DNA from: Luteolibacter sp. Y139
GTDB taxonomy: Bacteria > Verrucomicrobiota > Verrucomicrobiia > Verrucomicrobiales > Akkermansiaceae
Length of the DNA: 64,000 nt
Direction: 5' to 3'
NCBI RefSeq assembly: GCF_038066715.1
Contig: NZ_JBBUKT010000003.1
Location: 248,001-312,000, forward strand
The notes under the pieces are model-generated. The model made no database searches and was not told where the DNA came from. It saw nothing but the letters and a program-made list of their open reading frames with translations. The translations under genes and the position numbers were made by a program. Numbering within the stretch: the stretch's first letter is position 1; every line of letters starts with the position of its first letter. Below are positions 592 to 56,768 of this stretch, piece after piece.

Positions 592-3474
592 CTAGGGTCC
601 GGCGGCCACCCGGAAAAATCGTCTCTGCCCGGACGCAGGGAGCGTCACCGCCATCGTCCCGCCCGTCCCATACAAATGAATCGCCTCGGAAGCCCACGGA
701 CCGGCCAAGTTGGCAGCCGCATCGACCCGATAGGTCTGGCCGAGGACGGAAGGAAACGAAACGGTGAAGTCGCTGCCACTCCGCTGACCAGCGGCAAACA
801 AGCGGCTCGCGAAATTGCGCGGCGCAGTGCCCGCCAGGAACTCGTCCAGATTTGAAAACCCGTCGCCATCGAAGTCCAGGGCCGCATCCGCAGCATTGGC
901 AGAGCTCAATCCCGGGATCGTGCTCTCGTAGGCATTCGGCAACCCATCGCCATCGCTGTCCGTGGTGGTCACCGTCACGCCGTTGGAAAAGTCCGAAGTC
1001 CCGCCCCCACCGCGAGCCGTGGCAGTGATCACCTGGCCGGCGGAAACCGGCACAGGAAGTACGAGATTGATCGTAGCCACCCCCGCACCATTCGCCGTGA
1101 CACTACCGCTTCCGATGAAACGCTTGCCGGATATCGGAAAGGCACTCTCTGAAGAAAAGACTTCGAGCACGTAGCTGGCATTCGCCGCTCCATTCAGCGA
1201 GCCGCTCACCTGCGTCGTCACGCCCAGCGTTGCCGAGGCCAGCACCGGTGCCAGTTGGCCACCGTTCAAGCTGTTCACCGTGATCCCCCGCCAGCCATTT
1301 CCATAAATCGAATTCCGCGAGAACTCATGGCCCCCGGTGCCCGCATCGTAGAGCACGATCCCGCTGCTCGCGTTACCCGCGATCACATTGGCGGCACCAG
1401 CATCACTGCCACCGATGAAGCAGGACTGGGCCCCATTCTGGATCGCGATGCCATTGAACTGGTTCGTGAACGAAAGCGCCCCCGTGGCCGTCGGCCCGAT
1501 CCGATTGTTGCGCACGAAATTCCCGTGAGTCGCTGCATCCGCGATCAATACACCCACACTGGCATTCCCGGAAACCAGGTTGCCGCTGCCCGGCCCATCG
1601 CCAAGCTTGTTGGCACTACAGCCACCCGTTAGATAAACTCCGGCGAAGCCATTGGCCAGCGCCCCTGTGCCCGCCGCATTCGTCCCGATGAAATTCCCCA
1701 CCGCGAGATTGTCCGTGGTGCCCGCATCTCCGAAAGCAAGACCCACCGTCCCATTGCCGGAGCAAAGATTGCCTTCGAGCCGGTTGCCGGTCGCGCCTTG
1801 GAAGACCGTCAAACCCGCAAAGCCATTCGCCACGGCCGCTGTCCCCGCTGCATTCGTCCCGGCGCGATTTCCCTTCACCACATTTCCCGTAGTCCCGCTC
1901 CCACCGAGCCGCAGGCCTTCCGAGACATTCCCGGAAAACACATTGCCCTCGATCAAATTGTTAGAAGCCCCGCTGATCACATAGCCACCGGCGAAGCTGT
2001 TAGGCACCGCCGCATTTCCCGTCACATCGGTGCCGATCCAATTCCCGCGCACCGTGTTGTTAGACACACCGGCACCCGTCAGCCACAGACCGGCGGAAGT
2101 ATTTCCCGAAATCAAATTCCCCACCGTCGTGCTTCCGATCACCTGATCATGCGCCCCACCGGTGACGATCACTCCCCCGGCACCGTTCGCCCTCGCAGCA
2201 GTCCCCGCCGGATTGGTCCCGATATAGTTGCCCAGCACCTGATTCCCGGAGGTGCCACTGCCCGACATCCAGATCCCATACTCGCCGTTTCCGGAGAGAA
2301 CGTTCCGCTCCGCGTAGGTCGTGCCGCCAATGGTATTCCCACTCGCCCCGTCCGTGATCTGGACCCCTTGCTTCACATTCGGCGCCGCATTTCCCGCCGC
2401 ATTCAGCCCGATCCAACAGCCCGACACCGCATTTCCCGTCGCATCCGGCAGCTCCATCACAATCCCGCACCATGGGAAACGAATGATCCCCAGCCCCTTC
2501 ACCCGGCACCCCGATTCGCGGATCAGGAAACCCGGGGCCTCTCCCGACTCCACCGGCATCGCCGAGCCATCGAGAAACACCACCGGCTGCCCCGCAAAGC
2601 CCGGCTGCGTGGTCGCATCAATGACCACCCCATCCGTCGCCAGCGGCGGCAGGAAAGCCGTCGGCTTGATCGTGAAAGTGCCCGCGCTGTAGCCCGGATC
2701 GCTCGTCGGAATGTCGAACGTCACCGGCGTGCCGGGATGATCCTCCGCGTAGTAAATCGCCGCCCGCAGGCTGCCCGCCCCTCCATCCGCCGTGGTGGTC
2801 ACCACCGCCGACGGAGCCACCGCCGGCGGCCCATACAGGAAAGCCATCACCGCCCGGTCACCGGGACTCAGCGCCTGGTTCCCCAGCCGCGGCTGGAATT
2901 TCGAATAACCCGGCTTCACCTGGATCGTGTCCAGCACCCCCGGCTGCACTGACAGCAGGTCGCGGCCATAGTGCATCACCGACTCGAAGTCATACGGCCC
3001 GTAGGTCGTAGTCCCCGCCGCCACTGCGAAAAGAGCCTCGTTCCCCGGCACGATATTCCCCGTCAGGACTTGGATGTAAGTCCCCCGGTCCGGCCGCTGG
3101 TGCTCGTGCTCCAGACCGAAGGAGTGGCCCATCTCGTGGCAGATCTGCGCGCGCGTCAGGCTATTGATCTCCACCACCTGCGGCTGGCTGCCCGACGCCC
3201 GGTTCGGCCCCTGCGGATCATACTTGAAGAGCACATACTGCGTCTGGGCCGTCCTCGGCACGAACTGCACATTCGCCGCCAGCTCATACTCGCGCAGCCC
3301 GGACAAGTAGATCGCCCGTTGCGGGGCGGACACGCCGGCATCGAAGACATAGGGAACCACGCCCCCCGGCCACGGCACATTGCCGGGAGAGATCGTACTC
3401 GGATACAGCCCGCCAAACGCAAGGGTGGCGGACCAAAGGAAGAGCAACGCAGGAATTCCTGCGCGGGGGGTCAT
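592..3474 (-). CDS. Secreted astacin-family (M12A) metalloprotease fused to a right-handed beta-helix
   Basis: This 960-residue protein begins with a signal peptide (MTPRAGIPALLFLWSATLAFGG). The zinc site is the astacin signature HEMGHSFGLEHEHQRPDR, with H113, E114, H117 and H123, and the Met-turn SVMHYG lies near residue 167. From about 220 to 740 there are repeating GN.V.GN.IGTN turns typical of a parallel beta-helix (NosD or pectate-lyase-like fold). Two Asp-rich calcium sites (DSDGDGLPNAYE, DFDGDGFSNLDE) follow near 839-880. The last 70 residues form the small beta-domain shared by several proteins here, ending RRFFRVAAGP. It is probably a cell-surface or released endopeptidase. Family knowledge supports the peptidase call, but the role of the helix is unknown. 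Confidence 0.88.
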   Translation of the reverse strand: MTPRAGIPALLFLWSATLAFGGLYPSTISPGNVPWPGGVVPYVFDAGVSAPQRAIYLSGLREYELAANVQFVPRTAQTQYVLFKYDPQGPNRASGSQPQVVEINSLTRAQICHEMGHSFGLEHEHQRPDRGTYIQVLTGNIVPGNEALFAVAAGTTTYGPYDFESVMHYGRDLLSVQPGVLDTIQVKPGYSKFQPRLGNQALSPGDRAVMAFLYGPPAVAPSAVVTTTADGGAGSLRAAIYYAEDHPGTPVTFDIPTSDPGYSAGTFTIKPTAFLPPLATDGVVIDATTQPGFAGQPVVFLDGSAMPVESGEAPGFLIRESGCRVKGLGIIRFPWCGIVMELPDATGNAVSGCWIGLNAAGNAAPNVKQGVQITDGASGNTIGGTTYAERNVLSGNGEYGIWMSGSGTSGNQVLGNYIGTNPAGTAARANGAGGVIVTGGAHDQVIGSTTVGNLISGNTSAGLWLTGAGVSNNTVRGNWIGTDVTGNAAVPNSFAGGYVISGASNNLIEGNVFSGNVSEGLRLGGSGTTGNVVKGNRAGTNAAGTAAVANGFAGLTVFQGATGNRLEGNLCSGNGTVGLAFGDAGTTDNLAVGNFIGTNAAGTGALANGFAGVYLTGGCSANKLGDGPGSGNLVSGNASVGVLIADAATHGNFVRNNRIGPTATGALSFTNQFNGIAIQNGAQSCFIGGSDAGAANVIAGNASSGIVLYDAGTGGHEFSRNSIYGNGWRGITVNSLNGGQLAPVLASATLGVTTQVSGSLNGAANASYVLEVFSSESAFPISGKRFIGSGSVTANGAGVATINLVLPVPVSAGQVITATARGGGGTSDFSNGVTVTTTDSDGDGLPNAYESTIPGLSSANAADAALDFDGDGFSNLDEFLAGTAPRNFASRLFAAGQRSGSDFTVSFPSVLGQTYRVDAAANLAGPWASEAIHLYGTGGTMAVTLPASGQRRFFRVAAGP

Positions 3475-3506
3475 GGGGGGATTTTACGGCAAGGCGGACG
3501 GCAAGT

Positions 3507-3788: not shown

Positions 3789-3847
3789 AGCATCCTCCCT
3801 CTAACACCGGAATTCCCCCGGGTCGAGGGGCTTTTCAAACGGATGCC

Positions 3848-4525: not shown

Positions 4526-4597
4526 CGGCCGCAGACCATGGGCTGACGCCCTCCGCTCTAGCAAGTGCGGGAACCGGCAGTCCACCGCCGGCCGGAA

Positions 4598-5092
4598 TCA
4601 CCCGGGAATATCCACCCGCAAGCGGGCGAACAGCCTCGACCCGACGGCCAGCGTGCGCGGGATCTGCACCCGCACCCGGTCGACCGAGCCGCCGAAGAAA
4701 TTACCATCCTCGGCCACGGTTACTCCATCGACTCCCCCTTCAGCCTGGGTCCAGCCTGTCAGGTCGCTCCCATATTCCACGAAAGGATTGTAGGGAGCCG
4801 AGTCATCGCTGCGGCGGAACGAGAACGTCACGTAATCCTCATCCACGGTGATCGTCGGCAGCAGGCTGCTGGAGTCCGATCCCGGACCAGAAGGATCACC
4901 GCCAATGACGAATTCGATGCCGTTCGGGATCCCATCACCATCGGAATCCACCGCGGAACCCGCGCCGCTGATGCCATGGGTGGTTTCCCACACCCCGTAG
5001 GCGTCCTCCGGCGGAGCGCCGTGGACGAGGCAAAGCGGCACGAAGAGGCCGAACGCGAGCAAGCCGGTGCGCAGGGAGGATGGGGCTTTCAT
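4598..5092 (-). CDS. Small secreted protein with calcium-site stretch and common C-terminal domain
   Basis: This 164-residue protein has a signal peptide (MKAPSSLRTGLLAFGLFVPLCLVHGA), then YGVWETTHGISGAGSAVDSDGDGIPNGIEF, a DxDxDG calcium-site stretch of the TSP3 type. It ends with a beta-domain finishing SRLFARLRVDIPG. It is therefore nearly only the C-terminal module that closes much larger secreted proteins in this window, such as the ones at 592 and 53283. No catalytic domain is present. It may be a carrier or anchor domain on its own, or the remains of a larger gene; that is inference. It is transcribed away from the thioredoxin gene at 5332. Confidence 0.72.
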   Translation of the reverse strand: MKAPSSLRTGLLAFGLFVPLCLVHGAPPEDAYGVWETTHGISGAGSAVDSDGDGIPNGIEFVIGGDPSGPGSDSSSLLPTITVDEDYVTFSFRRSDDSAPYNPFVEYGSDLTGWTQAEGGVDGVTVAEDGNFFGGSVDRVRVQIPRTLAVGSRLFARLRVDIPG

Positions 5093-5847: not shown

Positions 5848-5871
5848 TCAGTCCGGCCCCTGTTCTTTCCA

Positions 5872-5905: not shown

Positions 5906-5950
5906 CGTGCCGCGGTCCGGGCCGGAAATTGATATCTGGGTCCGCCTCCC

Positions 5951-6694: not shown

Positions 6695-6718
6695 CTGCCC
6701 CCTCATTCCCTTCCACTC

Positions 6719-17540: not shown

Positions 17541-18776
17541 ATGAAAACACTTCTCGCTCTTCTCTTCACCGCCCTGGCGGTCTGCGCCAATGCCGGCACC
17601 CACGTCTGGTCGGGTGCGGGTGCCAACGCCTATTGGAACACTGCCGGCAACTGGTCCTCCGGCGGCGTGCCTGTCGCTGGCGAGGCCGCCCCGGTGAAGC
17701 TCATCTTCCCCGCCAACGCCACTTCCCGCACCAGCATGCTGAATATCGCCAACCTCAAGATCGACTCCATCGAGGTGGACCTCACCAGCGGGAGCTACAC
17801 TTTCCCGACGGCAGGAACGTCCATCACCTTCACCGGTGCGGCAGGCGACAATTTCAAGGTGACCGGAAACTCGAGCAGCGTAACCTGGCAGCCAGGCATC
17901 AACCTCCAGTCGACCTGCCGCTTTAACGTCTTGGTCAGTCCCGCCTACGCCGATTTCCAAGGCGTGATTTCCGGCAACGGCGGCATCGTGAAGACCGGCA
18001 ACGGCGACTTGAAGTTTTCCATCGGCGCTGTGGCGAATACCTTCACCGGCACGCTGCGGCTGGAGCAGGGCGATATTCTCTTGGAAAAGGCGGCGGGCAT
18101 TGCCTGCTTCGGAGGCAAACTTGAAATCGTCGCTGGCACTTGCACGGTCCGCCAATCCCAACAGATCCCCGCCAATGCGGTGGTCGAAATCCTCGGTGGC
18201 ACCCTGGCGGCCGCTGGCAACACCACCTTCACGCAGACGCTCAACAATGTGACGATGGGCGGCGATAGCCGCATCAACGCAAACGTGAACGGCAACATCA
18301 CTTTCGGCGGAACCTTGGATTTCGTGAATGATGCCACTACCAGTCCCACCATTTCTACCGCGAGCACCGGAACCCTCTCCTTCGGCGGCGGTACTCGCAC
18401 CCTATACCTGCCGCACCCCGATTCCTACCTGGAAGTCTATGCCGTGATCGGTGACGGCCCGACCGCTACCAGCCTTGTGAAGACCGGTGCCGGCTATCTG
18501 AAGCTCCTGTCGGCCAACACCTTCTCCGGAACCATGGAGGTTAAGGAAGGCGAGCTTGATATCGCGAATCCGAATGGACTCGGCAGTACCGCCAAGGGCA
18601 CCACCGTGCGCGCCGGCGCCACCCTGATCCTGAACTCTACCATGACCCTCCCTGCCGGAGAAACCATTACGCTGGAAGGCGATCTCGAGCCCGCAATGCA
18701 GCGGAGCTGCCCGGCCCGGTCGTGCTCGGCGGCACTCCATCCATTCATGCCGCCTACGGCTTCCCGCTCAAGCTGA
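17541..18776 (+). CDS. Autotransporter-associated beta-strand repeat protein, 5' part (frameshifted gene)
   Basis: The first part of a gene encodes a signal peptide (MKTLLALLFTALAVCANAG), THVWSGAGANAYWNTAGNW, and repeats of the type GNGGIVKTGNGDLKFS...NTFTGTLRLEQGDILL, which are autotransporter-associated beta-strand repeats. Good coding sequence runs to about residue 380 (GETITLEGD). The last about 30 residues (EPAMQRSCPARSCSAAL...) are unlike the family. In the overlapping frame the sequence continues as LPGPVVLGGTPSIHAAYGFP into the next entry. A one-base indel near 18683-18705, or a sequencing error, therefore separates the two halves. The intact protein would be about 800 residues, secreted or surface-attached. 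Confidence 0.75.
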   Translation: MKTLLALLFTALAVCANAGTHVWSGAGANAYWNTAGNWSSGGVPVAGEAAPVKLIFPANATSRTSMLNIANLKIDSIEVDLTSGSYTFPTAGTSITFTGAAGDNFKVTGNSSSVTWQPGINLQSTCRFNVLVSPAYADFQGVISGNGGIVKTGNGDLKFSIGAVANTFTGTLRLEQGDILLEKAAGIACFGGKLEIVAGTCTVRQSQQIPANAVVEILGGTLAAAGNTTFTQTLNNVTMGGDSRINANVNGNITFGGTLDFVNDATTSPTISTASTGTLSFGGGTRTLYLPHPDSYLEVYAVIGDGPTATSLVKTGAGYLKLLSANTFSGTMEVKEGELDIANPNGLGSTAKGTTVRAGATLILNSTMTLPAGETITLEGDLEPAMQRSCPARSCSAALHPFMPPTASRSS

Positions 18777-19954
18777 CCGGTGTCATCTCCGGCAGTCCTT
18801 CACAGGTCACCATCAAGGCCGGCGGCGCGGTCGAATGGAGCGGCAGCCAGGGCAACACCTACACCGGCATCGTCAAGGTCGACCTCAGCTCCGAACTCGT
18901 CCTTAAGAAGACCGCGGGGCAAGCCGTCACCGGCCCGGTCGAAATGGGTGGAGGCAAGCTCACCCTGGGAGCATCCAATCAGATCGCCGATACGGCACCG
19001 GTGTGGTTTTCAGGAAACGGCGTGTTCAACGTCAACGGCTACTCGGAGACCGTTTTAACCGTCTACGGAAGTGTGACTGCCGCGCTCGTGCTCGGCGATG
19101 GAACGCTGACGCTGGCCGGCAACAGCACCAACCAGCTCGGCTCCGCCGCACAACAGGTCCGGATCCAAGGCAGCCCGCTTTCCTCGATTCACAAGAAAGG
19201 CACCGGCACTTGGACCGTCTATCGCGGTGACTATCCGGTGGGAGGAGATCAATCGACTGCACTCTACGTGGAAGCCGGAAAAGTGCAGCTGCAGGTCAAT
19301 TGGCAAGGCTCCATCTTCCTCACCGGCGGCACCTTGGAAGGCAATGCCATCACCGGCTCGATCACCAACAACGGCGGCACGCTCAACCTCACCACCCTCC
19401 AGCCCAAGGGCGTCACCACCCCCGGCACCGGCGGCACCCTCGCCTGCAATATCAATAGCGAAGTCCCCGGCACCGGCTTCGGCCGCCTACAGGTCACCGG
19501 CACCGTCAACCTCACCGGCCTCACCCTGAACCTCGCGCTGAACTACCAGCCCCTGAACAACGAGACCTTCACCATCATCGACAACGATAGCAACGACGCC
19601 GTCACCGGCATCTTCAATGGCATGCCCGAAGGATCCACCATCTACGCCGGCGGCCAGCCCTTCAAGATCACCTACAAGGGCGGCTCCGGAGCCAACGATG
19701 TGGTGCTGCTCTTCACCGGTATTGGCGCACCTGACCCGCAGATCACCCTGGTCCGCCCTCAACCCGATGGCACCGTCCGCATCGACGTTTCATGGCAGCC
19801 ATCCAAGACCCTGACCCTGGAACGCGGCGTCAATGGAGGCCTCGCCCAATGGACCACCGCGAAAAGCGTGACGCTCGATGGGCAGGGCAAGGCAACCGTA
19901 TTCGTCTCAGCTGGCGGTACTAAGCGGGAGTTCTTCCGCCTGCGAACGAATTGA
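18722..19954 (+). CDS. Autotransporter-associated beta-strand repeat protein, 3' part (frameshifted gene)
   Basis: This is the second part of the gene beginning at 17541, in a different frame; the GTG at 18722 is only the first possible start and is probably not used. Repeats continue (GVISGSPSQVTIKAGGAVEWSG, NTYTGIVKVDLSSELVLKKT). A tail region follows (NLTGLTLNLALNYQPLNNETFTIIDND, then GSGANDVVLLFTGIGAPDPQITLV), and the common C-terminal domain ends REFFRLRTN. The last 270 bp plus the following terminator are duplicated at 21353-21692. Either the gene is broken in this strain or the assembly has an indel. Confidence 0.72.
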   Translation: MLGGTPSIHAAYGFPLKLTGVISGSPSQVTIKAGGAVEWSGSQGNTYTGIVKVDLSSELVLKKTAGQAVTGPVEMGGGKLTLGASNQIADTAPVWFSGNGVFNVNGYSETVLTVYGSVTAALVLGDGTLTLAGNSTNQLGSAAQQVRIQGSPLSSIHKKGTGTWTVYRGDYPVGGDQSTALYVEAGKVQLQVNWQGSIFLTGGTLEGNAITGSITNNGGTLNLTTLQPKGVTTPGTGGTLACNINSEVPGTGFGRLQVTGTVNLTGLTLNLALNYQPLNNETFTIIDNDSNDAVTGIFNGMPEGSTIYAGGQPFKITYKGGSGANDVVLLFTGIGAPDPQITLVRPQPDGTVRIDVSWQPSKTLTLERGVNGGLAQWTTAKSVTLDGQGKATVFVSAGGTKREFFRLRTN

Positions 19955-21294: not shown

Positions 21295-21626
21295 ATGAAG
21301 CTCTTCCCGCTCTCCCATCTCGCCTCCTTCGCCTGCGCCGGTTTCTTGCTAGCGGCTCCGGAGCCAACGATGTGCTGCTGCTCTTCGTGGGAGTCGGCGC
21401 ACCCGACCCACAGATCACCCTCGTTCGCCCTCAACCCGATGGCACCGTGCGCATCGACGTCTCCCGGCAACCCTCCAAGACCCTCACGCTGGAGCGCGGC
21501 GTCAATGGAAGCCTCGCCCAATGGACCACCGCAAAGAGCGTGACGCTCGATGGACAAGGCAAGGCAACCGTCTTCGTCACAGCAGGCGGCACTCCGCGGG
21601 AATTCTTCCGCCTGCGAACGAACTGA
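21295..21626 (+). pseudogene. Chimeric remnant: signal peptide of one gene joined out of frame to the tail of another
   Basis: An ATG at 21295 starts MKLFPLSHLASFACAGFLL, almost identical to the start of the gene at 23132. From 21353 the DNA is instead a copy of 19681-20019, the 3' end of the beta-strand repeat gene plus its terminator. The copied tail is intact in another frame (GSGANDVLLLFVGVGAPDPQ to REFFRLRTN, stop at 21626) than the signal peptide, so no proper protein is made. The frame from the ATG runs into an unrelated Cys/Ser-rich peptide. This marks the joint of a tandem duplication. Confidence 0.75.
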
Positions 21627-23131: not shown

Positions 23132-24037
23132 ATGAAACTCTTCCCGCTCTCCCACCTCACCTCCTTCGCCTGCGCCAGCCTCTTGTTAATGGCACCCGCC
23201 AGCGCTGCCACCTCCACCATCGATGCTTCCACGCACTACGCCTGGTCTGCCAACACCGGCTGGATCGATTTCCTCCCGGATGCCGACCGCGGATTCCGCT
23301 TCGGCGAGTTCAGCTGCGCCGGTTGGCTCTGGTCGCCCAATATCGGCTGGATCGACTGCGGCGACGGCACCCCCGCCAACAGTATCAACTACGCCAACAA
23401 TAGTAACACCGACTACGGCGTGAACCACTACGGAACCGGCGACCTCTACGGCATGGCCTGGAGTCCTAACACCGGCTGGATCAATTTCGGCTGGGCCACC
23501 CTCGATCCCGGCAATGCCAACCGTCCCCGCGTCGACCTCGTCACCGGCGAGTTCACCGGCTACGCATGGAGCGCCAACTGCGGATGGATCTCGCTGGCTG
23601 GCGTGAAGACCACCCGCATGGAAGTCATCGATACCGACGGCGACGGCATTTCCGATGCCTTCGAAATGGCCTACGCCGGCAACCTCACCACGCTCGCCGC
23701 AAACCACGATCAGGATGCCGATGGCTTCTCCGACGTGGATGAGTATGAATCGATGACCAATCCCTTCGATCCCTCGAATTTCTTCCGGGTCACCAAGGTC
23801 GAGCAGGCCAGCGCGGACGGCAGCGCGACCAAGCTCACCTGGACCAGCGCACCCAATCGCCGCTACGTCGTGGAGCACTCCAATGACATGGGCACGTCCA
23901 CGAAATGGCACGTATCAGCGCTGGATCCCGCACAATTCACGGCGGACTCCGGCGACTTCACCACCCGCACCACGCTGGATGTCGCCGCCGTGAGACGCTT
24001 CTTCCGCGTGAAGTCGGTGATCCCGCTCCAGCCATAA
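23132..24037 (+). CDS. Secreted protein with four W-x-x-N-x-GWI repeats and common C-terminal domain
   Basis: The protein has 301 residues from the ATG at 23132, with a signal peptide (MKLFPLSHLTSFACASLLLMAPASA). Four short repeats follow: YAWSANTGWIDF, GWLWSPNIGWIDCG, YGMAWSPNTGWINFG and YAWSANCGWISL. Then come calcium-site stretches DTDGDGISDAFE and DQDADGFSDVDEY, and the beta-domain ending RRFFRVKSVIPLQP. The repeats have the look of a small ligand-binding beta-fold; the ligand is unknown. A truncated copy of its first 19 codons lies at 21295. The frame is open far upstream (22628) through the preceding gene, which is only a shadow. Confidence 0.8.
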   Translation: MKLFPLSHLTSFACASLLLMAPASAATSTIDASTHYAWSANTGWIDFLPDADRGFRFGEFSCAGWLWSPNIGWIDCGDGTPANSINYANNSNTDYGVNHYGTGDLYGMAWSPNTGWINFGWATLDPGNANRPRVDLVTGEFTGYAWSANCGWISLAGVKTTRMEVIDTDGDGISDAFEMAYAGNLTTLAANHDQDADGFSDVDEYESMTNPFDPSNFFRVTKVEQASADGSATKLTWTSAPNRRYVVEHSNDMGTSTKWHVSALDPAQFTADSGDFTTRTTLDVAAVRRFFRVKSVIPLQP

Positions 24038-24056: not shown

Positions 24057-24088
24057 GGGGAGGCCACCGTGCCAAGGTGGTCCTCCCC
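24057..24088 (+). promoter_or_regulatory. Strong hairpin directly before the start codon at 24093
   Basis: GGGGAGGCCACC (24057-24068) pairs with GGTGGTCCTCCCC (24076-24088) with one bulged base and a 7-nt loop, ending 4 bases before the ATG. It would hide a ribosome site. It lacks a T run, so it is not a typical terminator. Confidence 0.5.
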
Positions 24089-24092
24089 CGCC

Positions 24093-24971
24093 ATGTTCCC
24101 GTCCTTCAAATCCGGCATCGCATGGGCCTTGGCCATCATGCCGCTGCATGCAGAAGTGCTGGAGACGAACTTCGAGTCCGGCTTCGGCCCGTGGACACCG
24201 CTGTTCTCCGGAACCTGGGAGATCCAGAACCAAAGCGGCAATCACGTCGCCGCGCTCACCGTGGCCGGAGTCAATCGCCCGCCGGTGCGCAGGCCCCAGG
24301 CCTACCTTTTCCTGAATGGCTACTCGTGGACCGACTGCACCTTCACCGTGCATGCCAAGACCCTCGAACCCGCCGCCACCACCACTCGCGATGTCGTCCT
24401 CATCTTCGGCTACGCGGACGATACCCACTACTACTACGCCCACACCTCCAGCAAAGCGGACGCCATTCACACCGTGATCATGAAAGTGGCCGGCACCCAG
24501 CGCGCCACCATTCACCTCGAAGCGAATCCCACCCCCGCCCTCAATGGCAACTGGCAGACCATCCGCGTCGAACACGCCGCCACCGGCACCATCCGCGTCT
24601 TCGTCGATAACATGGTCACCCCACGCCTCACCGCCAATGACACCACCTACCCCGCCGGAGCCCTCGCCTTCGGCTCCTTCGACGACCGCGCCCTCTTCGA
24701 CGACGTCTCGATCTCCGGAACCGACATCCCCGTAACGGCTCCAAAAGTCTCTCTGGAAAAACACGGCAACAACGAACTCACCCTGAGCTACCCCACGCAA
24801 AAGGGCCTCTCCTATCAGCTCCTCTCCGGCAGCAACCTCTCCTCCCTCACTCCTCTAACAACAGCCACCGCAGGCTCGGGCAGCATGGAAACCCGCCCCG
24901 TCATCCTAGCCGAAGCTCCCTACCGTTTCTTCCAAGTGCTCACCACCCACCCCCTGCTGGCGCAGCCTTAA
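24093..24971 (+). CDS. Secreted concanavalin/LamG-like domain protein
   Basis: The protein has 292 residues from the ATG at 24093, with a short signal (MFPSFKSGIAWALAIMPLHA). A jelly-roll domain (about 20-210) has the pattern EIQNQSGNHVAAL, FLNGYSWTDCTFTVHAKT, YYYAHTSSKADAIHTVIMKV, GNWQTIRVEH and VFVDNMVTPRL. This resembles the glycan-binding or DUF1080-like folds of PVC secreted proteins. The last about 75 residues form a diverged version of the shared tail (YRFFQVLTTHPLLAQP). No catalytic call is made. A GTG at 24069 is an alternative start but falls inside a stable hairpin. Confidence 0.72.
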   Translation: MFPSFKSGIAWALAIMPLHAEVLETNFESGFGPWTPLFSGTWEIQNQSGNHVAALTVAGVNRPPVRRPQAYLFLNGYSWTDCTFTVHAKTLEPAATTTRDVVLIFGYADDTHYYYAHTSSKADAIHTVIMKVAGTQRATIHLEANPTPALNGNWQTIRVEHAATGTIRVFVDNMVTPRLTANDTTYPAGALAFGSFDDRALFDDVSISGTDIPVTAPKVSLEKHGNNELTLSYPTQKGLSYQLLSGSNLSSLTPLTTATAGSGSMETRPVILAEAPYRFFQVLTTHPLLAQP

Positions 24972-30003: not shown

Positions 30004-33000
30004 TCACGGTGCTGAAACGCTCAACCGCAGGAAGAGCGCCTCCTTGCCCGCCATCGGCACGCTGAACGTATGCTGCGGAGCCACGCCCGTATCAGTCACG
30101 GGGATCCACGTGGTCAGGTCCTCACTCCACTCCCCACCGTAAGTGACGCCACTGACACCGGCAGGTTGAGTAAAGGAAATCACGAAATCCTCTCCCACGC
30201 GCTGGGCTTGGGGAAGCAGCCCGGAATCCGCCACGGCCGGGTTCAGCCCGAAGGCATACTCGATCAGGTTCACCACGCCGTCCTTGTCGAAATCGGAGCT
30301 GTCCGCGCCACTGCCGGTATTTGCCGGAGAGCCAAAATGAGCCTGCCGCCAGCTTGCCAGGGGAGTGGCATAGTCACCGAAGGCGATCACCGTCTCCACC
30401 AAGCCGGAACTGCTGTTTTCAGAGCCACCCCATGTCCGCCCGCGGGCGCGCAGCAGCCCCCCGGAGGGAAGACTCAAACCAGTGAGCTGCCAATTCGCCG
30501 AACTGCCCACGCGAACGGCATTGCCCAGCGGGCTATAGCTGACGCCTCCATTCGTGCTCAGCTCGATCGAGACACGCGAAACCTCAGGCGAACTTCCGCC
30601 GCGCAGCCAATTCACCTGCGTCGTACCGGCAACCTCCAGGGACTGCGTCGCAACGTCGTTGAGTAACCGGGCAAACAGGAACCGCAGTGTGCTTGGTCCA
30701 GCGTGGTTGGGTTGCAACAGGGCAAACTCGCCACCGATCAGAACCCGTCCGTCCGCTTGCAAGGCAATGCCGTAGACGTTCATATTCGCGCCGGGATCGA
30801 AGTTCCTGTCTGGCGTGCCATCGGCATTGAGTCTGGCGATGGGACCGACCGAGAGGCCATAAGCCGCGCCATTGGGCTGCAAATAGGAAAACGAGCCGCA
30901 CAGCAGCAGCTTGCCATCCGCCTGCAATGTCATGCCGTAGACGTAGCCGTTCGCCTTCGGATCGAAGCCTCCATCCAGAGTCCCGTCCGGATTCACCCGC
31001 CCGATGCAATTGCGTGATGTCGGTGAGGCCGCGCCATTGGGCTGCAGCGTGGTGAACACGCCGCCGAGCAACACCTTGCCATCCGGTTGCAGGGCGATGC
31101 TGATGAGGGCTTCGTTCGCATTGGGATTGAAGCCCGCGTCCAACGTCCCATCGGCATTTACCCGCGCGATCCGGTTTCGCGTGGTAGCCGTGGCCGCGCC
31201 ATTGGGTTGCAGCGTGGTGAATCCGCCGCCGAGCAGCACCTTGCCATCCGGCTGCAATGCCACGCTGTTGATGTAGGCATTCGACTTGGGATCGAAGCCG
31301 GCATCCAGCGTTCCATCCACATTCACCCGTGCAATGCGTTGTCTCGTCGTGGCAGTGGCTGCACCGTTGGGCTGCAGCGTGGTGAAATAGCCCGCGAGCA
31401 GCACCTTGCCATCCGGCTGGATCACAATGCTTCGCACATAACTGTTCGTCTTGGGATCAAATCCCGTGTCCAGCGTGCCATCGGCATTGAGCCGCGCGAT
31501 GCGCTGTCTCGTCGTCGGAGTGGCCGCGCCGTTGGGCTGGAGCGCCGTGAACCAACCGCCCAACAACACCTTGCCATCGTCCTGCAACGCCACGGTGAAA
31601 ACCCTGTCGTTGGCATTGGGATCGAAGCCGGCGTCCAGCGTCCCGTCTGCATTGAGCCGGGCGATGTTGTTGCGCGGCACACCGAGCACGGAGGTGAAGG
31701 TCCCCCCGATGATGATCTTCCCGTCAGGCTGGACCACCACCGCATTCACGGTGCTGCCCAGAATATTGGCATCCAGGGGATCGAGATCGCCCGATCCCGC
31801 CGCGGCGCGGGTGATCGTCACCATATAGTCTTTGGTCGTCGTGCCATCCTGCGCGGTCACGCGAACGTCCACGACATTCACTCCCACACCCAGCGCCAAG
31901 TCCCCCGTGGCACTGCCGGAGTCGACTGGGGTGAAGCTTCCGCCATTCAAACTCACCGCGATGCTGGCGTTGACCTCCGCTTTCGTCGGAGTGACGGAGA
32001 GGCTGATCTCGCCAAAGGGCCGGCTGACCGCATAGTCGGTCACGGAAGTGGAAAAGGCCGGTGTCAACGTGCCCGCACTGATGCTCAAGGCCGAGAGATC
32101 GGCATTGTTGGAAATGAAGCCCGTTCCCTGGAGGTTGAAGCTGAAATGGCCTTCATCCGCATCGTTGGTGTCAAAGGTCACCACGGCTTCGCGCAAACCA
32201 ACCGCACTGGCGTCAAACGTGATCGCAAAGGTCGCGCCGCGGCTCGCGTCAACCAGCACCGCGGGCTGCTGGCTCACGGTGAAGTCCGCGGCATCCGGTC
32301 CACTGATGGTCACTTGGCTCAGGGTCAGGTCGGCGGTTCCGGTATTGGCGATCGTGAAGACGCGGGTGCGGGTGCGCGTGGATGCCGCCCCGAAGACCGT
32401 GACGCTGCCGAAGTCCGTGTGATTGGAGAGATCCGGAAAAGCGGCACCATTCGGGATGCTCACGCCGTTGCCCGTGACGTGGATTTCAGGCGCGGCGGCC
32501 ACGCCGAAATTCGTCACGGTCCCCACGAAGCCCGCGGACGTACCATGATAGCCGCCCACAGTACGACCCCGCGCGCGAATCTGCCCACTAGGCAATGGAA
32601 GACCGGTCAATTCCCAGCCGCCGCTGATGCGCGTGCCTGCACCGAGGAGCGTATAACTGGTGCCATGGTCGGTCGACAGTTCGAAGCTTACCTCTTCCAC
32701 TTCCGGAGAAGTACCACTGCGGAGCCACTGGATGCGGTTGCCACCATCGATCGTCAGGCTCTGTGCCGCAGGCCCGTTGAGAATCCGGGCAAGGCCTGTG
32801 CGCGCAAAACCCGCAACCTCTCCGTTGGGACGCAGCTTGAAGAAAGTACCGCCTAGCAGCACCTTCCCATCCTCCTGGGAGGCGATGCTGTAAACGTAGC
32901 TGTCCGGGTTGGGATCGAAATCGATGTCCAGCGCGCCATCCGCGCCCAGCCGGGCGATCCGGTTTCGAGTGGTGGCCGTTGCCGCCCCGTTCGGTTGGAG

Positions 33001-36033: not shown

Positions 36034-36168
36034 GATAGACAAAGCGACAGCAAGGACGTCGCTAAGATAAACCGCACCGGCCCGCTAGATATTTCGCCCG
36101 AAGAAGCTGACACATGACCGCGCGCCACACCGCAAGGTCACGCTGCTTTACCCGTGACACCGGCAAGA

Positions 36169-47958: not shown

Positions 47959-50900
47959 TCATTCGGCCTCCTCAACCCTTACACGGTAGAACCTCTTCTC
48001 ACCGCTGGCCGGAACGGAAATCATCGAATTTGCCCCAACCGCTTCCAACGGAGCACCGGTATCCGTCCATGATCCATCCGCCAGCGTGGTGCTCGTCTCC
48101 AGCTGATACGTGAACCCCGCGACGCTGGAAAAGCTCACCTCCACATTCCCGCCGTTCCGCGAAACATCCGTCACCCGGAACACCGAAGCCGCACTCAACG
48201 GATTCGTCCCCGCTGCCTGCTCATCCGCATTGCTCTCCCCATCGCCGTCCTGATCACCGGCAGCCGAAAGAAGCTGGACCGCCGTAGTCGTCGAACCGGG
48301 ATTCGGTGCCCCCGCATCGCTCTGGCCGGGAGAAGCGGAAGAAATACCCGCCGCGCTGATGGCAGTGATCCGCGCGCGGTAGATCTCCCCGGCCATGCCA
48401 TTGAACGTGTATTGCGGACTGGTCACGGTAGCGGAAGATACCGGATCGCCGTCACCATCGAACACTTCCACCAGCCACGAGCCGACATTGTCGTCCGGCC
48501 CTGCATTGGACACCCATGTGAAGGTCCCTGAACTACCAATTTCGTAGTAATTCGCCAGCGGCGCGGGAGACGGCGGCGGGGTGACGTCGTAGAGCTTCAA
48601 ATACTGAGCCTCGAAGGGACGCTGGTTCCACGCCGCATCAGCAGGGTTGGCGGAGGTGTCCATCGTCGGCACCTTGTTGAGCACCACAAGGAACCCATTG
48701 TTCTTCAACTGTGTGCCGGTGTAGCCCGCACCCCATTGCCAGGAATTGCGACGGCCGCTCATCCCGATGCCCGCATTGAGATAGGCCGCGATGTTCTTCA
48801 CGTTATACGTGCGGCCATCCTTGATCCCCAGCAACGGCGCGAGACCTGATGGCACCTTGAAGTTGTCCTGCTGGTTGTTCGCACGATCGAGATTGGCAAA
48901 TGCCATCACCACGTCGCTGAAGGCAGGCGAGGCATTGGCAGTTTCATACTTCGCAATCGCATGGACTTTGGTGTTGTTGCCATCGCCATCCAGGAACCAT
49001 CGGTTCGAAGCCCGCAGAGCCGGACTCGATCCACGCGCCGCACCCATGCCCGCATAGACCGGATACAGCTGGTCGTTGCCAAAATTCGCATCCGTCCAGA
49101 TCGGCTGCATCGAGTTGAACCGCTTGAAGTGCGGGATCTGCTTCCCGAAATTCAGCTCGTAGTGGTCGTAGCCATAGGTGGCGGAGATCCCGAGTTCCTG
49201 GCCCGGGAAAATCATCGGCACCCCATCCATCGAACCCGCCACGCTGAAGCGGATCAGCGCTTCCCACGGGTCATTGTAGTTCGCTTCGTCATGCGAGGTG
49301 TTGTTGATCAAGACGAGACCTTGCCCGTAGGCATTCCGCCGGCTCTCGAAGATGTTCCGGTAGTCGCTCTTGGTCGTGGCACTCGCCAGCGGAAAGACGA
49401 TGTTCTCGTTGAGAATGTCGAAGTGGCGGTTCGAACGATAGGTCACCGCGCCGCCATCGAGCGATTCGCTCATCATCACGAAGTTCCACTTCTTCGAGCG
49501 GGCCACGTTGATGATGTACTCCCAGCACTGCGGCGGCAGTCCCTGGCCGAAGTCGCAGCGCAGGCCATCAATGCCGCGCGCGTCCCACGCATAGCGCTGC
49601 GCTGTCGTCAGGCCGGGCTCGGTCGAGCTGTTCCGGTTCTGCCCTGCTGGCCGCGTCTTCTCCAGCCAGTGCGTGCCGTAACGGGCGAAGTACTGCCACA
49701 CGCGCCGCGTCACATTCTTCTGCTGGGCGCCTTGCACGAAGTCATTCGCCGTCCAATCGCTATCGGTCGCATCGAACCAATCACCTTCGCTGGTGTAGCT
49801 TGAACGCTCCGGCTCGCTGTCGGTTTCCACCAACGCATCATAGCGGCCGAAGAAAACATCCTTCACATCGTTCCACTTCCCGAAGTCAAAACGATCCGGT
49901 CCCGGCGCAATGGTCGCCGCACTCGATGCCCGGTTGCCATAATTCCCCGCAGCCGAGAAGAAGCGCGCCTCGCGATTGCGGATCTCATCCGTCTTGGCCC
50001 ACGTCTGGCCATCGGGCTGGAACAGGCTCACGCCCGCATCGGCGAGCTCGACGTCATAAGCCGTGTGATTGAACGGCGCATCCAGCATGATGCCCACCGT
50101 CTTTGCATCCGCCGCGCTCACAAAATTCTGCCACGCCGTCATCGCCGCATCGCGGTTCGTCTGGCTGAGCAAGTCGGCATTGTTGAAAGGACTGCCGCTG
50201 AAGTTCTTCGTGAAGATCGGGCTGACCTCGAAGAAGTTCTTCACCGCATACGGACTCCCAGGCTCATAAGGCGGGTTGCCACTGCCCCATCCGCCGAACG
50301 GCTCGCGGCCATCGCGCGCCGGTGGATGGATCGGCTGGAACCACAGCCAGTTCGCACCGAGCGACTTCAGGTAGTCGAGATCCCAGTGGTTCGCTCCATT
50401 GTGAGGCGCGCCGGGAGCATTGTGCATGTCCTCGAGGGTCGAGCGCGTTTCAAAGGTATCACCCGACGCCTCGATGTTCAGCACGTTGACCTCATAGAGC
50501 GTGATGTTCCGCGCATCCTTCGGCGACACGGTGATGGCATGGTCACGGCGGTTCGCGGCAACGTTCGTGTACCACCGCCAATTCGGATCCCCGGAAACCT
50601 TCCACCGCGCGGTGAGCCGGTAAGCGCCTGTCTTCTCCGCCGGCAAGGTCAGCGTGTAGGTGCCCGCTCCAGCGGACGTCATCGTGTAGGCCTTGAAGTA
50701 GTTCGAGTCATCGCCAGCCACCAGTGTCGATCCATCCGGTCCGCTCACGCCATCCGGATAACCGTCGCCATCCGCATCGATGTCCGCGCGGTCGCGACGG
50801 TTCAGGTTCGTGTAGATCTCCGCAGCCGTGACGTTCGCCTCACCCGGCTGGAAGGAAATGCCCAGCGGAATCGAATCACCGGCGATCTCATCCACGAACA

Positions 50901-52239: not shown

Positions 52240-53295
52240 ATGACTGCTCCTTCCAGAAACCCCTTCTCCCGGAGGCTACCGTGGGCGGCGCTGCTGCTCT
52301 TGCCGCTTCTGGCGACCCCCTCCCCGGCAGTGGGTCCAGTCCGCGGGCGCGACCCATGGGCCTTCCGGCTGACCTTGGAAAACAAGACGCGGATGCTGGT
52401 GGCGGCCCTCCGCTCCGATCTCTGGGTGGCCTACAATCCGGCAAACGGCACGCTGCACAAGGTGTGGAACGGCGGGATCCAGTTCCGCGGCAAGGTCTGG
52501 GACTTCGGCCAGCAAAACTCGGCCACCACCGGGACGACCTACCACTTGCTGAAAAAGGCGTTCCTGTTTTCCGCGACCAACGAAACGATCATCCCCGCCG
52601 GTTGGTCGGCGACCGGAATCACCACCGGCACCTCGTGGAACCTCTCCACCGCCGCGGGGACGATGCTCGTCTCCCCCGCAGCCGACCTGCGGAATTACGA
52701 TAACGTGATGCTCTCCTACCAGACCCCGGGCGGAGACAACCGGCTGCTGGTGGATGTCTCGAATGACAACGGCGCGACGTGGACCGCTCAGCAGTGGATG
52801 TCGATCGACGCCCCGGCAGCAGACGGGAACATGAAATTGGTCGAGGTCAACGGGCAGGCGGTGAAGGTCCGCTTCCGCCGCAATACCACCGGCTCCACCG
52901 CCACACTCGGAGATGTGCTGCTTTTCGGCGACTACCGTGCCTGGACCATGCAGACCGGCGGAAGCCCGGTCGCCATCAAGGTCGATTGGCGCGGCTACAA
53001 GCTGATCAACCACACCGATGGCATCGTGGTCCGCTACGACATGGTGCTGCCAGGCGGCGCACGCGTCGGCATCGAGGAACGCCCTGAGGCGATGACCGGG
53101 GCAAAATTGCAGCGGAAGTTCACGATCACCGGCATGCCTGCGAGCTCGCGCCTGTCGCTTGAAATCGATGGCAATGGCTATCAGGCCACCCACGCGGTGA
53201 CCGGCGCGACGGCACTCCGCACCGAAGCCGGCGCGACCTTCCTGGATTTCACCACCAACGGTGACGCAACCCTCGAGACCACATGGACTCCTTGA
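52240..53295 (+). CDS. Secreted beta-domain protein with DPWAFR-type N-terminal module
   Basis: This 351-residue protein has a signal peptide (PWAALLLLPLLATPSPA). The segment RDPWAFRLTLENKTRMLVAALRSDLWVAYNPANGTLHKVWNGGIQFRGKVWD is a module that I recall at the start of larger PVC and Bacteroidetes proteins with PA14, cytochrome c or DUF1080 domains. The middle part (about 95-235) is a jelly-roll-like insertion (NNDNVMLSYQTPGGDN region). The C-terminal part (RYDMVLPGGARVGIEERPE) is beta-rich. No CxxCH heme site is present. Its last 13 bases overlap the next gene, so both are produced together and probably act together at the surface. Confidence 0.75.
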   Translation: MTAPSRNPFSRRLPWAALLLLPLLATPSPAVGPVRGRDPWAFRLTLENKTRMLVAALRSDLWVAYNPANGTLHKVWNGGIQFRGKVWDFGQQNSATTGTTYHLLKKAFLFSATNETIIPAGWSATGITTGTSWNLSTAAGTMLVSPAADLRNYDNVMLSYQTPGGDNRLLVDVSNDNGATWTAQQWMSIDAPAADGNMKLVEVNGQAVKVRFRRNTTGSTATLGDVLLFGDYRAWTMQTGGSPVAIKVDWRGYKLINHTDGIVVRYDMVLPGGARVGIEERPEAMTGAKLQRKFTITGMPASSRLSLEIDGNGYQATHAVTGATALRTEAGATFLDFTTNGDATLETTWTP

Positions 53296-56200
53296 TTCGA
53301 TTCGGTGCAGTCCTGGCCTGCTGTTTTGCAGGAGCCGTAGCCCAAACAACACCGGCGTTGAAACCCGGCGTCACGGTCTGGGTCTACGACACCGGCGCGG
53401 AAATGCGCGAGCTGCCGGTGCTGGTGGACGGCCAGACGCCGAACGTCTCGGCGGATTTCAATACCATCGATTTCAGCACCCCGTGGGCGAGCACCTATGG
53501 CCCCCCGCTGGCCGAGCACTACATCGGCCACGCCTGGGGACGCATGGCGATCACGACCGGCGGCACCTATGAATTCCGCCTGACCAGTGATGATGGCGCG
53601 AAGTGGTTCCTCGGCGACGACGCGGCACTGGTCATCGACAATAACCAAGCCGGCACCAACACCAAGACCGCCACGCTGAACCTGCTGCCCGGGACTATCC
53701 GATACTACATCGATTTCTACCAAAACACGGGCTCCTCGAAACTCCTGCTCGAGTGGAAACCACCGGGTGCCAGCGCCTTCGAAGTCGTCCCCGCCGGCGT
53801 GCTTCAGACCGAGGACGGCCTGACGCAGGTCACATCACCTGGACTCAAGAACTACTACTATCAGGACGGCGAAGGCGGCACTGCCGGCGGCCCGGGCGAT
53901 GGACGTCCACTGGTCGGCGTGCACCCGAGCTTCGATCTGGTGAATTTCCGGCCCGCGAATTTCCACCCGGCGGTGGGCGGGCTCGATTTCCTGCCGGATG
54001 GTCGTCTTGCGGTCTCCACCTGGGACTCGACGGGCGCAGTCTATCTGCTGGATCACCTCGACAATCCGGCCGCGGTCACCGTGCATCGCTTCGCGGAAGG
54101 CCTCGGCGAGCCGCTCGGGCTCAAGGTCATCGATGGCATCATCCACGTGAGCCAGAAGCAGGAGGTCACCAAGTTGATCGACCTCGATGGCGACGACGTG
54201 GCGGACGAATACCAAGCCGTCGCCCACGGCTGGCCGGCCTCGTTCAACTACCACGAGTTCACCTTCAATCTGGTGCCGAAGGATGGCTTCCTGTGGGTGA
54301 CCACCTCGGTGCCGCTGCGAAATGGCAGTACCGCGTATTTGCCCGGCTCGAAAGGCTCATTTCCCGTGCCGAATGGCCCCGGGTCCCTGTTGAAGATCGA
54401 TCCGGTGGCAAGGACCTGGCAGGCCGTGGCCAGTGGCCTGCGCACGCCGAATGGTCTCGTCGCCGGCATGGACGGCGAGCTTTTCGCGGGAGACAACCAG
54501 GGTGACTGGCTGCCTTCATCGAAGATCAATCACCTCCAGCCCGGGAACTACTATGGTCATCGTGAAAACCCGGATGACACCCGCGCCTACACGCGTCCGG
54601 CGCTGTGGTTGCCACACGGGGAGATTTCGAACTCTCCCGCCCAGCCAACCTTGATCCCCACCGGCATCTATGCCGGGCAAATGCTATTCGCCGAGCTCAC
54701 CCACGGCGGCGTGAACCGGGTCTTCATGGAAAAGGTCCGCGGCGAGTATCAAGGCGCCGTCTTCCAATTCACCCAGGGACTCGAGTCCGGCATGAGCCGC
54801 CTCGTCTGGGGCCCGGATGGCTCGCTCTACGTCGGCGGCCTCGGTGCCGGCGGCAACTGGAACTGGAAGAACACCACCTACGGCCTGCAGCGCCTGCGGC
54901 CGAATGGCAAGGTGACCTTCGAGATGAAGAGCATGCGCGCACGCGCCGATGGCTTCATCGTCGAGTTCACCCAGCCGGTGCCCTTCTCGGTGGCAGCCAT
55001 CCCGGGGAACTACGTGCTCCAGCAGTATCGCTACATCCCCACCTCCACCTATGGCGGGCCGAAGAGCGACGTGGAAACGCTGACCGCGACCCGGGTGGAC
55101 GTTTCGCTGGATCGCCGCAAGGTCTTCATCAAGATCCCCGGCCTCAAGGAAGACCATGTGGTCGCGCTTCGCCTGAAGGATTTCATGAACGACGCCCACG
55201 TCGCGCCGTGGGCGACCGAAGGATGGTATACCCTGAACCTCCTGCCCACCACCATGGGCGCGGACTTCGTGCCGATGGATCCCCCCGCCGAGCCCACCGC
55301 CCCGGTGCCTCTCCCGGGAGCCGCGATCTATGAAGGGGAGACCGCCACCCGTGTGGGACCCGTGGTCGCTTCCGGGAACGCAGGATTCACCGGCACCGGC
55401 TTCGCCGACTACGGCACCGCCATTGGCGAGACGCTCACTTGGAACATCACCGCCGACCAAGCGGGCCCGCACTGGATTTCCTTCCGCTACGCCAATGGCA
55501 CCACCACCAACCGGCCGCTCTCTCTATCCGTGAATGGCACCGTGGTGAATTCCAGCATCCCCTTCGGACCCTCGGGCACCGTCTGGACCTCCTGGATCTA
55601 CACCGACGGAATCAGCGTCAACCTCGTGGAAGGCCAGAATACGATCCGCCTGACCAGCACCATCACCAACGGCCCGAACATCGATCACCTCTACGTCTGC
55701 GGCCCGCCCGCCGCGGCCCCACCCGGAGCCGTGATGCTTTTCGACGGCACCGCTGCCTCCCTGACCAACAACTGGCGGCGCGACGCAAACAACGGCGCTC
55801 CCTCGTGGGGCGTCGCTGCGGGCGCCATGGGCGTGGCGATCAATCCGGCCCCGAACGACATCTCGACCATCGCTGGCTTCCGGGACTTCAAGCTTCACCT
55901 CGAATGGCTGTCGCCACCCGGCGGCACCGGCCAGGAAGCAGGCAATTCCGGCGTGAAACTCCAGCGCAGCTACGAGCTGCAAATCCTCAACACTCCGATC
56001 AGCCAATCCCTGCAAAACGATCTGGCCGGTTCCTTCTACCTGCAAAAGCAAGCCGACGTGAACGCCAGCCTCGGTGCGGGCGCATGGCAAAGCTACGATG
56101 TCGATTTCACCGCCGCCCGTTGGAACGGCGCGGTGAAGACCGCCGACGCCCGCGCCACTGTTCGCTGGAACGGCATGCTGGTGCATAACAATGTCGCAAT

Positions 56201-56768
56201 TCCCGGCGCCACGGGAGAGTCTCCCGCTGAAGCCCCCGGGCTCCTACCCATCGTCCTCCAGGCCCACTCCAGCAGTGCCAGCGGTCCGGTTCGCTTCCGC
56301 AACATCTGGGTCATTCCGAAAGTGAGCCCTCAGGAGAAGTGGCAAGCGTGGATCGACGGCAGCGGCCTCCAGGGAGCCCAGCAGGATCCAAATGCCGATC
56401 CCGATGGCGATGGCATGAAGAACCTCTGGGAATACGCCACCGGCGGCAGCGCGACGGCGGGAGACATCCTCACAACGACTGGCGATTCACGGACTCCGCG
56501 GATGACCATGTTCAACGACTCGGAAGAGAGCTACCTCGAGTTCACCTTCGTGCGACGCGCGGACTTCCTGGACCGCGGACTGGATTTCCGGATCGAAACT
56601 TCGTCGACCCTCGGTCCGGACTCATGGACCTTCCGCTCCTCAAGCCTCGTCGGTCCACCCGAACCCGTCGGCGACGGCACTCTTGAAAAAGTGACCCTCC
56701 GCGTGGATGAGCCGGTCTCCGGCAGCCCGCAGCTGTTTGCTCGCTTGAGAGCGGAGATGCAGGAGTGA
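53283..56768 (+). CDS. Secreted multidomain protein: PA14, six-bladed propeller, carbohydrate-binding and DUF1080 domains
   Basis: This 1,161-residue protein has a signal peptide (MDSLIRFGAVLACCFAGAVA). A PA14 domain (about 40-190) includes GTYEFRLTSDDGAKWFLGDD. A glucose/sorbosone-dehydrogenase-like propeller (about 210-545) includes GLDFLPDGRLAVSTW and ASGLRTPNGLVAGMDGELFAGDNQGDW. A CBM6/35-like domain (about 680-815) includes NGTVVNSSIPFGPSG and NTIRLTST. A DUF1080 (3-keto-disaccharide hydrolase-type) domain (about 820-1015) includes FRDFKLHLEWLSPPGG, NSGVKLQRSYELQILN and QAHSSSASGPVRFRNIWV. DPDGDGMKNLWEYATGG and the tail LFARLRAEMQE close the protein. It is likely a carbohydrate-active surface protein; the reaction is inferred from domains. 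Confidence 0.88.
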   Translation: MDSLIRFGAVLACCFAGAVAQTTPALKPGVTVWVYDTGAEMRELPVLVDGQTPNVSADFNTIDFSTPWASTYGPPLAEHYIGHAWGRMAITTGGTYEFRLTSDDGAKWFLGDDAALVIDNNQAGTNTKTATLNLLPGTIRYYIDFYQNTGSSKLLLEWKPPGASAFEVVPAGVLQTEDGLTQVTSPGLKNYYYQDGEGGTAGGPGDGRPLVGVHPSFDLVNFRPANFHPAVGGLDFLPDGRLAVSTWDSTGAVYLLDHLDNPAAVTVHRFAEGLGEPLGLKVIDGIIHVSQKQEVTKLIDLDGDDVADEYQAVAHGWPASFNYHEFTFNLVPKDGFLWVTTSVPLRNGSTAYLPGSKGSFPVPNGPGSLLKIDPVARTWQAVASGLRTPNGLVAGMDGELFAGDNQGDWLPSSKINHLQPGNYYGHRENPDDTRAYTRPALWLPHGEISNSPAQPTLIPTGIYAGQMLFAELTHGGVNRVFMEKVRGEYQGAVFQFTQGLESGMSRLVWGPDGSLYVGGLGAGGNWNWKNTTYGLQRLRPNGKVTFEMKSMRARADGFIVEFTQPVPFSVAAIPGNYVLQQYRYIPTSTYGGPKSDVETLTATRVDVSLDRRKVFIKIPGLKEDHVVALRLKDFMNDAHVAPWATEGWYTLNLLPTTMGADFVPMDPPAEPTAPVPLPGAAIYEGETATRVGPVVASGNAGFTGTGFADYGTAIGETLTWNITADQAGPHWISFRYANGTTTNRPLSLSVNGTVVNSSIPFGPSGTVWTSWIYTDGISVNLVEGQNTIRLTSTITNGPNIDHLYVCGPPAAAPPGAVMLFDGTAASLTNNWRRDANNGAPSWGVAAGAMGVAINPAPNDISTIAGFRDFKLHLEWLSPPGGTGQEAGNSGVKLQRSYELQILNTPISQSLQNDLAGSFYLQKQADVNASLGAGAWQSYDVDFTAARWNGAVKTADARATVRWNGMLVHNNVAIPGATGESPAEAPGLLPIVLQAHSSSASGPVRFRNIWVIPKVSPQEKWQAWIDGSGLQGAQQDPNADPDGDGMKNLWEYATGGSATAGDILTTTGDSRTPRMTMFNDSEESYLEFTFVRRADFLDRGLDFRIETSSTLGPDSWTFRSSSLVGPPEPVGDGTLEKVTLRVDEPVSGSPQLFARLRAEMQE

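Follow-up and report, generated by a model that had tools for sequence, protein, structure and literature searches.

The C-terminal domain (CTD) of type IX secretion is a beta-sandwich of about 70-100 residues that forms the extreme C-terminal part of many exported proteins of one genome, otherwise unrelated to each other. A second class, PEP-CTERM (TIGR02595), which goes with exosortase (TIGR02602), consists of a short motif, a helix and a basic cluster. Here I describe a domain of about 75 residues, called the tail below, that many exported proteins have at their extreme C-terminus and that carries, close to its end, a near-invariant F-x-R-V/L. It came to light in a stretch of 64,000 nucleotides (the window) from Luteolibacter sp. 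Y139, a member of the Verrucomicrobiota, where a preliminary description had noted eight secreted proteins sharing a C-terminal end.

Two described modules are related to parts of this arrangement. Fibronectin type III (FN3; PF00041) shares its strand order and fold with the tail as predicted, except that the tail ends after strand F and the seventh strand (G) is missing. The bacterial TSP3 repeat (PF18884) corresponds to a calcium-binding DxDxDG segment that usually stands before the tail; TSP3 is the joint alone, not the tail domain. There is also a precedent for an FN3 domain in export. Loops 3 and 5 of the Fn3 domains of the pectate lyases PelI and Pel3 are part of a type II secretion signal, as described in passages of PMC7949064. 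Those domains, in contrast to the tail, are seven-stranded and N-terminal, and their signal is made of loops and parts of the catalytic domain, not of an edge strand.

GlyGly-CTERM and PEP-CTERM are discussed in PMC3237569 and PMC4960237, which concern C-terminal signals and the outer-membrane proteome, and the passages in question make no mention of the tail domain. A literature search, with subscription papers and preprints outside its scope, found no paper that names it. What appears to be new is an FN3-like domain, in an unusual form predicted to lack strand G, serving as a C-terminal module across a phylum.

Number and position of the tails

A profile of the eight window tails (A1) gave at least 156 matches in the 7.1-Mb genome, while a single tail as query gave 60. 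With 150 of 436 candidates scored, this count of tails is a minimum. The set examined consists of 147 matches, 138 with surrounding DNA (from both searches) and nine in the window. Left out were 22 rows that matched the calcium segment only and two weak internal rows (C9:71706, E 0.26; C4:590754, E 0.98). Calcium-only matches with A1, among the 150 candidates scored, also fall on frames without a listed tail match.

The match ends within 71 residues of the stop codon in 139 of the 147 cases and within 0-4 residues in 95. The profile is blind to stop codons, yet it falls near the C-terminus almost every time, and this is stronger evidence than any count of motifs. Among the other eight, six lie in frames that continue past the DNA examined, and two have 177 and 218 residues after the match. 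Seven of these eight have the motif and count as internal copies, of which five follow directly on a signal peptide; the eighth (C6:164341) lacks the motif and is probably no member. One of the 139 (C1:519622) carries a 34-residue extension behind the domain. The genome thus has at least 138 terminal tails. The tail was absent from a plasmid collection searched for it.

Four residues stand out in the 139 tails: F (kept in 123), R (118), W (124) and L (121). The pattern F.[RKHQ][VLIAFM] occurs in 118, with its F 7-12 residues from the C-terminus in 116 of these, and in 127 of the 139 just 3-8 residues follow the motif. A strict form, F[FYALVIM][RQ][VL], is present in the last 20 residues of 83 of the 139 tails and in none of 86 neighbouring open reading frames (ORFs). 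A looser form is found there in 130 tails but also in 31 of the 86 neighbours, and so is common by chance. These motif counts are description and no independent test, because the tails were picked by a profile that contains the motif. The calcium site, written as D.D.DG..[ND]..E, lies within the last 125 residues of 107 tails; the remaining 32 lack the pattern there.

The tails of the window

The window holds the following tails (positions within the window; plus and minus are strands).

595..882, minus: calcium site and tail domain of the astacin and beta-helix protein, ORF 592-3474; ends RRFFRVAAGP
4601..4954, minus: calcium site and tail domain, LFARL type, of the short ORF 4598-5092; AlphaFold2 model with pLDDT 70.5
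19727..19951, plus: tail domain without calcium site, of a frame-broken PATR protein, 17541-19954; ends REFFRLRTN
21399..21623, plus: a ninth tail, near copy of the one at 19727..19951; stop at 21626, ends PREFFRLRTN
23720..24034, plus: calcium site and tail domain, protein start likely at 23132; PF18884 above its cut-off
24744..24968, plus: tail domain without calcium site, ORF 24069-24971; ends YRFFQVLTTHPLLAQP
30007..30300, minus: calcium site and tail domain of the delta-60 repeat protein, 30004-36042; ends LFLRLSVSAP
47962..48264, minus: calcium site and tail domain of the GH13-type protein, which probably starts at 51855; ends KRFYRVRVEEAE; AlphaFold2 model with pLDDT 92, pTM 0.79 and FN3 structure matches
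56400..56765, plus: calcium site and tail domain, LFARL type, ORF 53283-56768

The C-termini quoted for the original eight proteins read letter for letter as reported, each at its stop. The preliminary description missed the ninth tail and also a tenth, on a gene that leaves the end of the window (stop near contig position 312860; ends HLFVRLQATKN). It had counted a DxDGDG-type calcium site before the tail in six of the eight, and six do have one, in the form DxDxDG (DFDKDG in the protein ending at 30004). An alignment of the last 130 residues of the eight shows this site in six, together with a beta-rich end and one invariant phenylalanine. At E up to 1, none of the eight has its tail covered by a model of Pfam or NCBIfam. 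PF18884 touches the calcium segment in four, above its cut-off in one, and NCBIfam matches below cut-off (MtsD and the Amuc_1099 family) extend into the calcium segment, in one protein as far as the start of the tail.

Two observations concern the PATR (passenger-associated-transport-repeat) gene at 17541-19954 on the plus strand. It is split over two frames, with a break near 18.65-18.72 kb that could reflect a frameshift or an error in sequencing. Its tail and that at 21399-21623 on the same strand are near copies, which points to a recent duplication of neighbouring genes.

Predicted fold

The fold of the tail is well predicted: an FN3-like beta-sandwich without strand G, in which F-x-R-V/L would form the last strand, F. 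AlphaFold2 models the GH13-type tail as such a sandwich, with a last strand that runs as far as residue 98 of the 101. The model of an LFARL-type tail (4601..4954) is of moderate quality, with an equal order of the main strands and the same ending at F. When the structures were searched with the model, FN3 domains made up most of the 50 matches listed, and solved targets extend past the aligned end (for example 3mpc, aligned over 3..80, and 5j7k, over 6..75). Strand G is missing in the internal copies as well, and the tail as a complete FN3 repeat was ruled out on that account. At E up to 1 PF00041 (fn3) matches none of the eight window proteins; it does match two further carriers, at places inside the protein. 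The preliminary description had allowed that the tail might simply be an Ig-like domain without positional constraint. As to fold it came close, in that the model is FN3-like, but the positional constraint is strong.

Carrier proteins

What do proteins with tails have in common besides the tail? The window's N-terminal families are astacin, delta-60 repeats, PA14/CBM35/3-keto-disaccharide hydrolase and GH13-type alpha-amylase, the last a marginal match (22.5 bits against a cut-off of 22). No N-terminal family rises above cut-off in three cases: the short protein with its stop at 4598, the fragment that stops at 19954 and the protein that stops at 24971. Wherever a model matched, then, the very different N-terminal domains of the preliminary description were borne out.

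A wider set of 29 carriers, scanned with Pfam, combines the eight of the window with 21 others chosen at random, frames of more than 2300 residues excluded. Their domains are mostly extracellular and unrelated to one another: astacin, GH13, GH76, sulfatase, rhamnogalacturonan lyase, sialate esterase, CotH, laminin-G, F5/8-C, Calx-beta, delta-60 and PATR. None of the 29 looks plainly cytoplasmic, in keeping with the earlier view of the tail as a mark of secreted proteins; one has a match to the Hcp family, five have no informative N-terminal match and two of the 21 random carriers have no Pfam match of any kind. PATR repeats are usually part of autotransporter passengers. Seven of the 21 random carriers are PATR proteins, and here the chain finishes in the tail and not in a barrel. 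The carriers are long, with a median stop-to-stop frame of 1151 residues.

A home-made rule for signal peptides, applied within the first 120 codons, found a signal-peptide-like start in 117 of 139 tail proteins, as compared with 3 of 129 internal stretches of the same proteins. The rule is lenient, and exported proteins abound in the neighbourhood, for adjacent ORFs reached 38 of 86 and the control on their own internal stretches gave 4 of 14. Among the 22 tail proteins that failed the rule, some start late or have a signal peptide that is evident by eye.

Spread beyond the genome

A second profile (A2, 40 rows) was run against 288 genomes sampled from the phylum, with at most 17 candidates scored per genome, so that its counts are lower bounds. 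At E up to 1e-5 it matched 181 of the 288 genomes and 103 of 151 genera. A scan of named genomes yielded the best 80 of 147 confirmed loci, and 74 of those 80 are labelled Verrucomicrobiota or groups within it; Haloferula, Prosthecobacter, Pelagicoccus, Pontiellaceae and Kiritimatiellales are among the carriers. The other six bear the labels, as given, of the PVC group, unclassified, Proteobacteria (two), Cloacimonadota and Acidobacteria. Matches number 9 and 12 in the genomes of the two loci labelled Proteobacteria, and 4 in the genome of the locus labelled Cloacimonadota.

These 80 loci comprise 64 that are full-length and uncut, 15 that are partial and one that is cut. The tail is terminal in 60 of the 64: in 59 the match ends within 12 residues of the stop, and L197 is added to them because the match there ran through its stop. 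The four exceptions are three internal copies (L190, L213 and L214) and L217, which shows the calcium part only. The preliminary description therefore had hold of something real but larger than it knew. The shared last module on unrelated secreted proteins recurs through the genome and the phylum, and the restriction to the extreme C-terminus that it anticipated from a profile search holds in both, with just seven internal copies among the 147 matches examined in the genome.

A domain predicted to be of the same G-less FN3-like form also occurs away from the C-terminus, between two calcium sites, at L190, L213, L214, C2:31373, C3:483805 and C13:45203. Four of these six copies lie near the N-terminus.

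Might the tail be no more than structure, a calcium-stiffened end domain that stabilizes or closes long exported proteins, or spaces them, without any common partner? The length of the carriers, the prediction of a small, confident sandwich beside calcium loops and the presence of the domain between two calcium sites inside proteins would all suit such a cap or spacer. I consider it unlikely, for it does not account for the conserved and seemingly outward-facing F and R on the last strand, nor for the near-constant company of secretion and exosortase genes (see below), and an open edge is an improbable cap.

Comparison with known C-terminal classes

The preliminary description likened the tail to type IX CTDs and to PEP-CTERM. 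The likeness of position stands, as does the spread over unrelated exported proteins. Like a type IX domain, the tail is extreme C-terminal, beta-rich and borne by Sec-exported proteins, but it differs in its predicted FN3-like fold without strand G, in the calcium site in front and in belonging to Verrucomicrobiota. PEP-CTERM is likewise a C-terminal class on exported proteins of this very genome, which has one exosortase (TIGR02602, above cut-off) and 26 PEP-CTERM matches above cut-off. The window has a single PEP-CTERM protein, as had been said, at 37757-38617 on the plus strand.

Membership in either class is another matter. The type IX sorting-domain models match none of the eight window proteins (NCBIfam and Pfam, E up to 1; the other carriers were covered by Pfam), and the SprA/Sov translocon (TIGR04189) has no match at E up to 1 in the genome, which is 96.7% complete. 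On these two grounds a type IX domain was rejected. No type IX structure is among the 50 structure matches listed, although this excludes nothing. Neither the ends of the tails nor their consensus show a PEP motif or a hydrophobic helix followed by a basic end. The 26 PEP-CTERM matches lie in frames of 144 to 521 residues, whereas the tail is a domain mostly on larger proteins, and by eye none of their places coincides with a tail, so PEP-CTERM was rejected too. (The PEP-CTERM model also matches 7 of 14 control genomes, above cut-off in 2.) That the tail belongs to a known C-terminal sorting class is hardly credible.

Secretion and exosortase genes

The genome of the window encodes GspG, above cut-off, and GspJ, GspK and a GspD-like secretin, which are below cut-off but adjacent to one another; GspE and GspF were not identified in this Gsp cluster. 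How do such genes follow the tail through the phylum? Presence was taken as E up to 1e-15 for GspG (232 genomes, 200 over the curated cut-off) and for the exosortase EpsH (190 genomes, 131 over cut-off), and as E up to 1e-30 for a control, the cytochrome oxidase CtaD (89 genomes, 44 over cut-off). Weaker GspG matches may be other pseudopilins. By number of tails, the genomes divide as follows.

No tail (107 genomes): GspG-like pseudopilin 75/107, exosortase 35/107, CtaD 23/107
1-4 tails (67 genomes): GspG-like pseudopilin 51/67, exosortase 44/67, CtaD 11/67
5-8 tails (20 genomes): GspG-like pseudopilin 13/20, exosortase 18/20, CtaD 3/20
At least 9 tails (94 genomes): GspG-like pseudopilin 93/94, exosortase 93/94, CtaD 52/94

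GspG and exosortase occur together in 92 of the 94 tail-rich genomes and in 21 of the 107 without tails. CtaD also rises between these classes, by less, so that the associations of GspG and exosortase exceed that of this one marker, in counts that ignore kinship.

The exosortase gene is tied to exopolysaccharide loci in a passage of PMC1569441, and its near-universal presence in tail-rich genomes (93 of 94, against 35 of 107 without tails) bears on another possible role. The tail may be a retention module, an FN3-like domain without strand G that holds secreted proteins on a common polymer, such as the cell's own exopolysaccharide or the polysaccharides of algae or plants that it breaks down. 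There is a parallel in RbmA of Vibrio, an FnIII-domain protein that, according to passages of PMC5605196, binds exopolysaccharide. The carriers include several polysaccharide enzymes (sulfatase, GH76, GH13-like, rhamnogalacturonan lyase), N-terminal copies of the tail suit a binding module, and in a sequence search of solved structures glucanase and chitosanase modules (E 7e-4 to 9e-3) outscore every FN3 domain (E 0.02 or more) over the tail part. Binding, on the other hand, needs no fixed distance from the C-terminus, yet in 116 of 118 tails the F keeps a distance of 7-12 residues from the end. There are also carriers without an enzyme match, the PATR and delta-60 proteins for example, and no ligand site is known on the tail. 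I regard retention as a possibility to be taken seriously.

A proposed tag for folded proteins

I propose, tentatively, that the tail serves as a C-terminal localisation tag on proteins that fold before they leave the periplasm. An N-terminal signal peptide (Sec) would take the carriers over the inner membrane, and in the periplasm they would fold around calcium, the calcium site making a stiff joint before the tail. The sandwich, lacking strand G, would then present an open edge strand and an exposed patch of E/Q, R and F to a common partner. The partner would most likely be the type II secretion system, since it moves folded proteins and is near-universal in tail-rich genomes, or else a surface receptor.

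This proposal is favoured by the position near the stop codon, the diversity of the carriers, their signal peptides, the conserved F, R and W, the FN3-like model that ends at strand F, the precedent of PelI and Pel3, and the Gsp genes with their co-occurrence. A localisation tag is on this showing likely but unproven, with the type II route as a lead, and binding to a polymer is nearly as good an account.

Other observations weigh against the proposal or its type II route. The rare N-terminal copies speak against a tag obliged to sit at the very end. An Akkermansia-like genus, in which 17 of 22 genomes have 1-8 matches and none has GspG, tells against a strict link to type II secretion. Finally, the best matches to the model among solved structures are indeed the Fn3 domains of PelI and Pel3 (3b4n, 3b8y, 4u49, 4u4b), but other FN3 domains follow within one Z unit, so that no type II signal can be called from this likeness alone.

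Verrucomicrobiota could also own a phylum-wide C-terminal sorting system, in which a dedicated partner in the outer membrane or at the surface binds the open edge strand F, with its F-x-R-V/L, through strand addition. If so, it would serve them as type IX domains serve Bacteroidota. I find this doubtful.

Verrucomicrobiota are important degraders of polysaccharides, and how they move and hold their many surface proteins, a question on which the tail bears, is poorly known. With well over 100 carriers in one genome, the tail would allow the surface or secreted proteome to be recognized from sequence, and it would merit a family model in Pfam and NCBIfam. If the localisation tag does address the type II system, then tail proteins would be a concrete set of candidate substrates for a system whose recruitment of substrates is called elusive in passages of PMC7949064. 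For one Verrucomicrobiota isolate, a passage of PMC13274419 suggests a type II system as the possible exporter of its alginases. In the genome studied here, the type II cluster (C2:67001-86000, L235) lies a few kilobases from a gene with an N-terminal copy of the tail domain (C2:80912).
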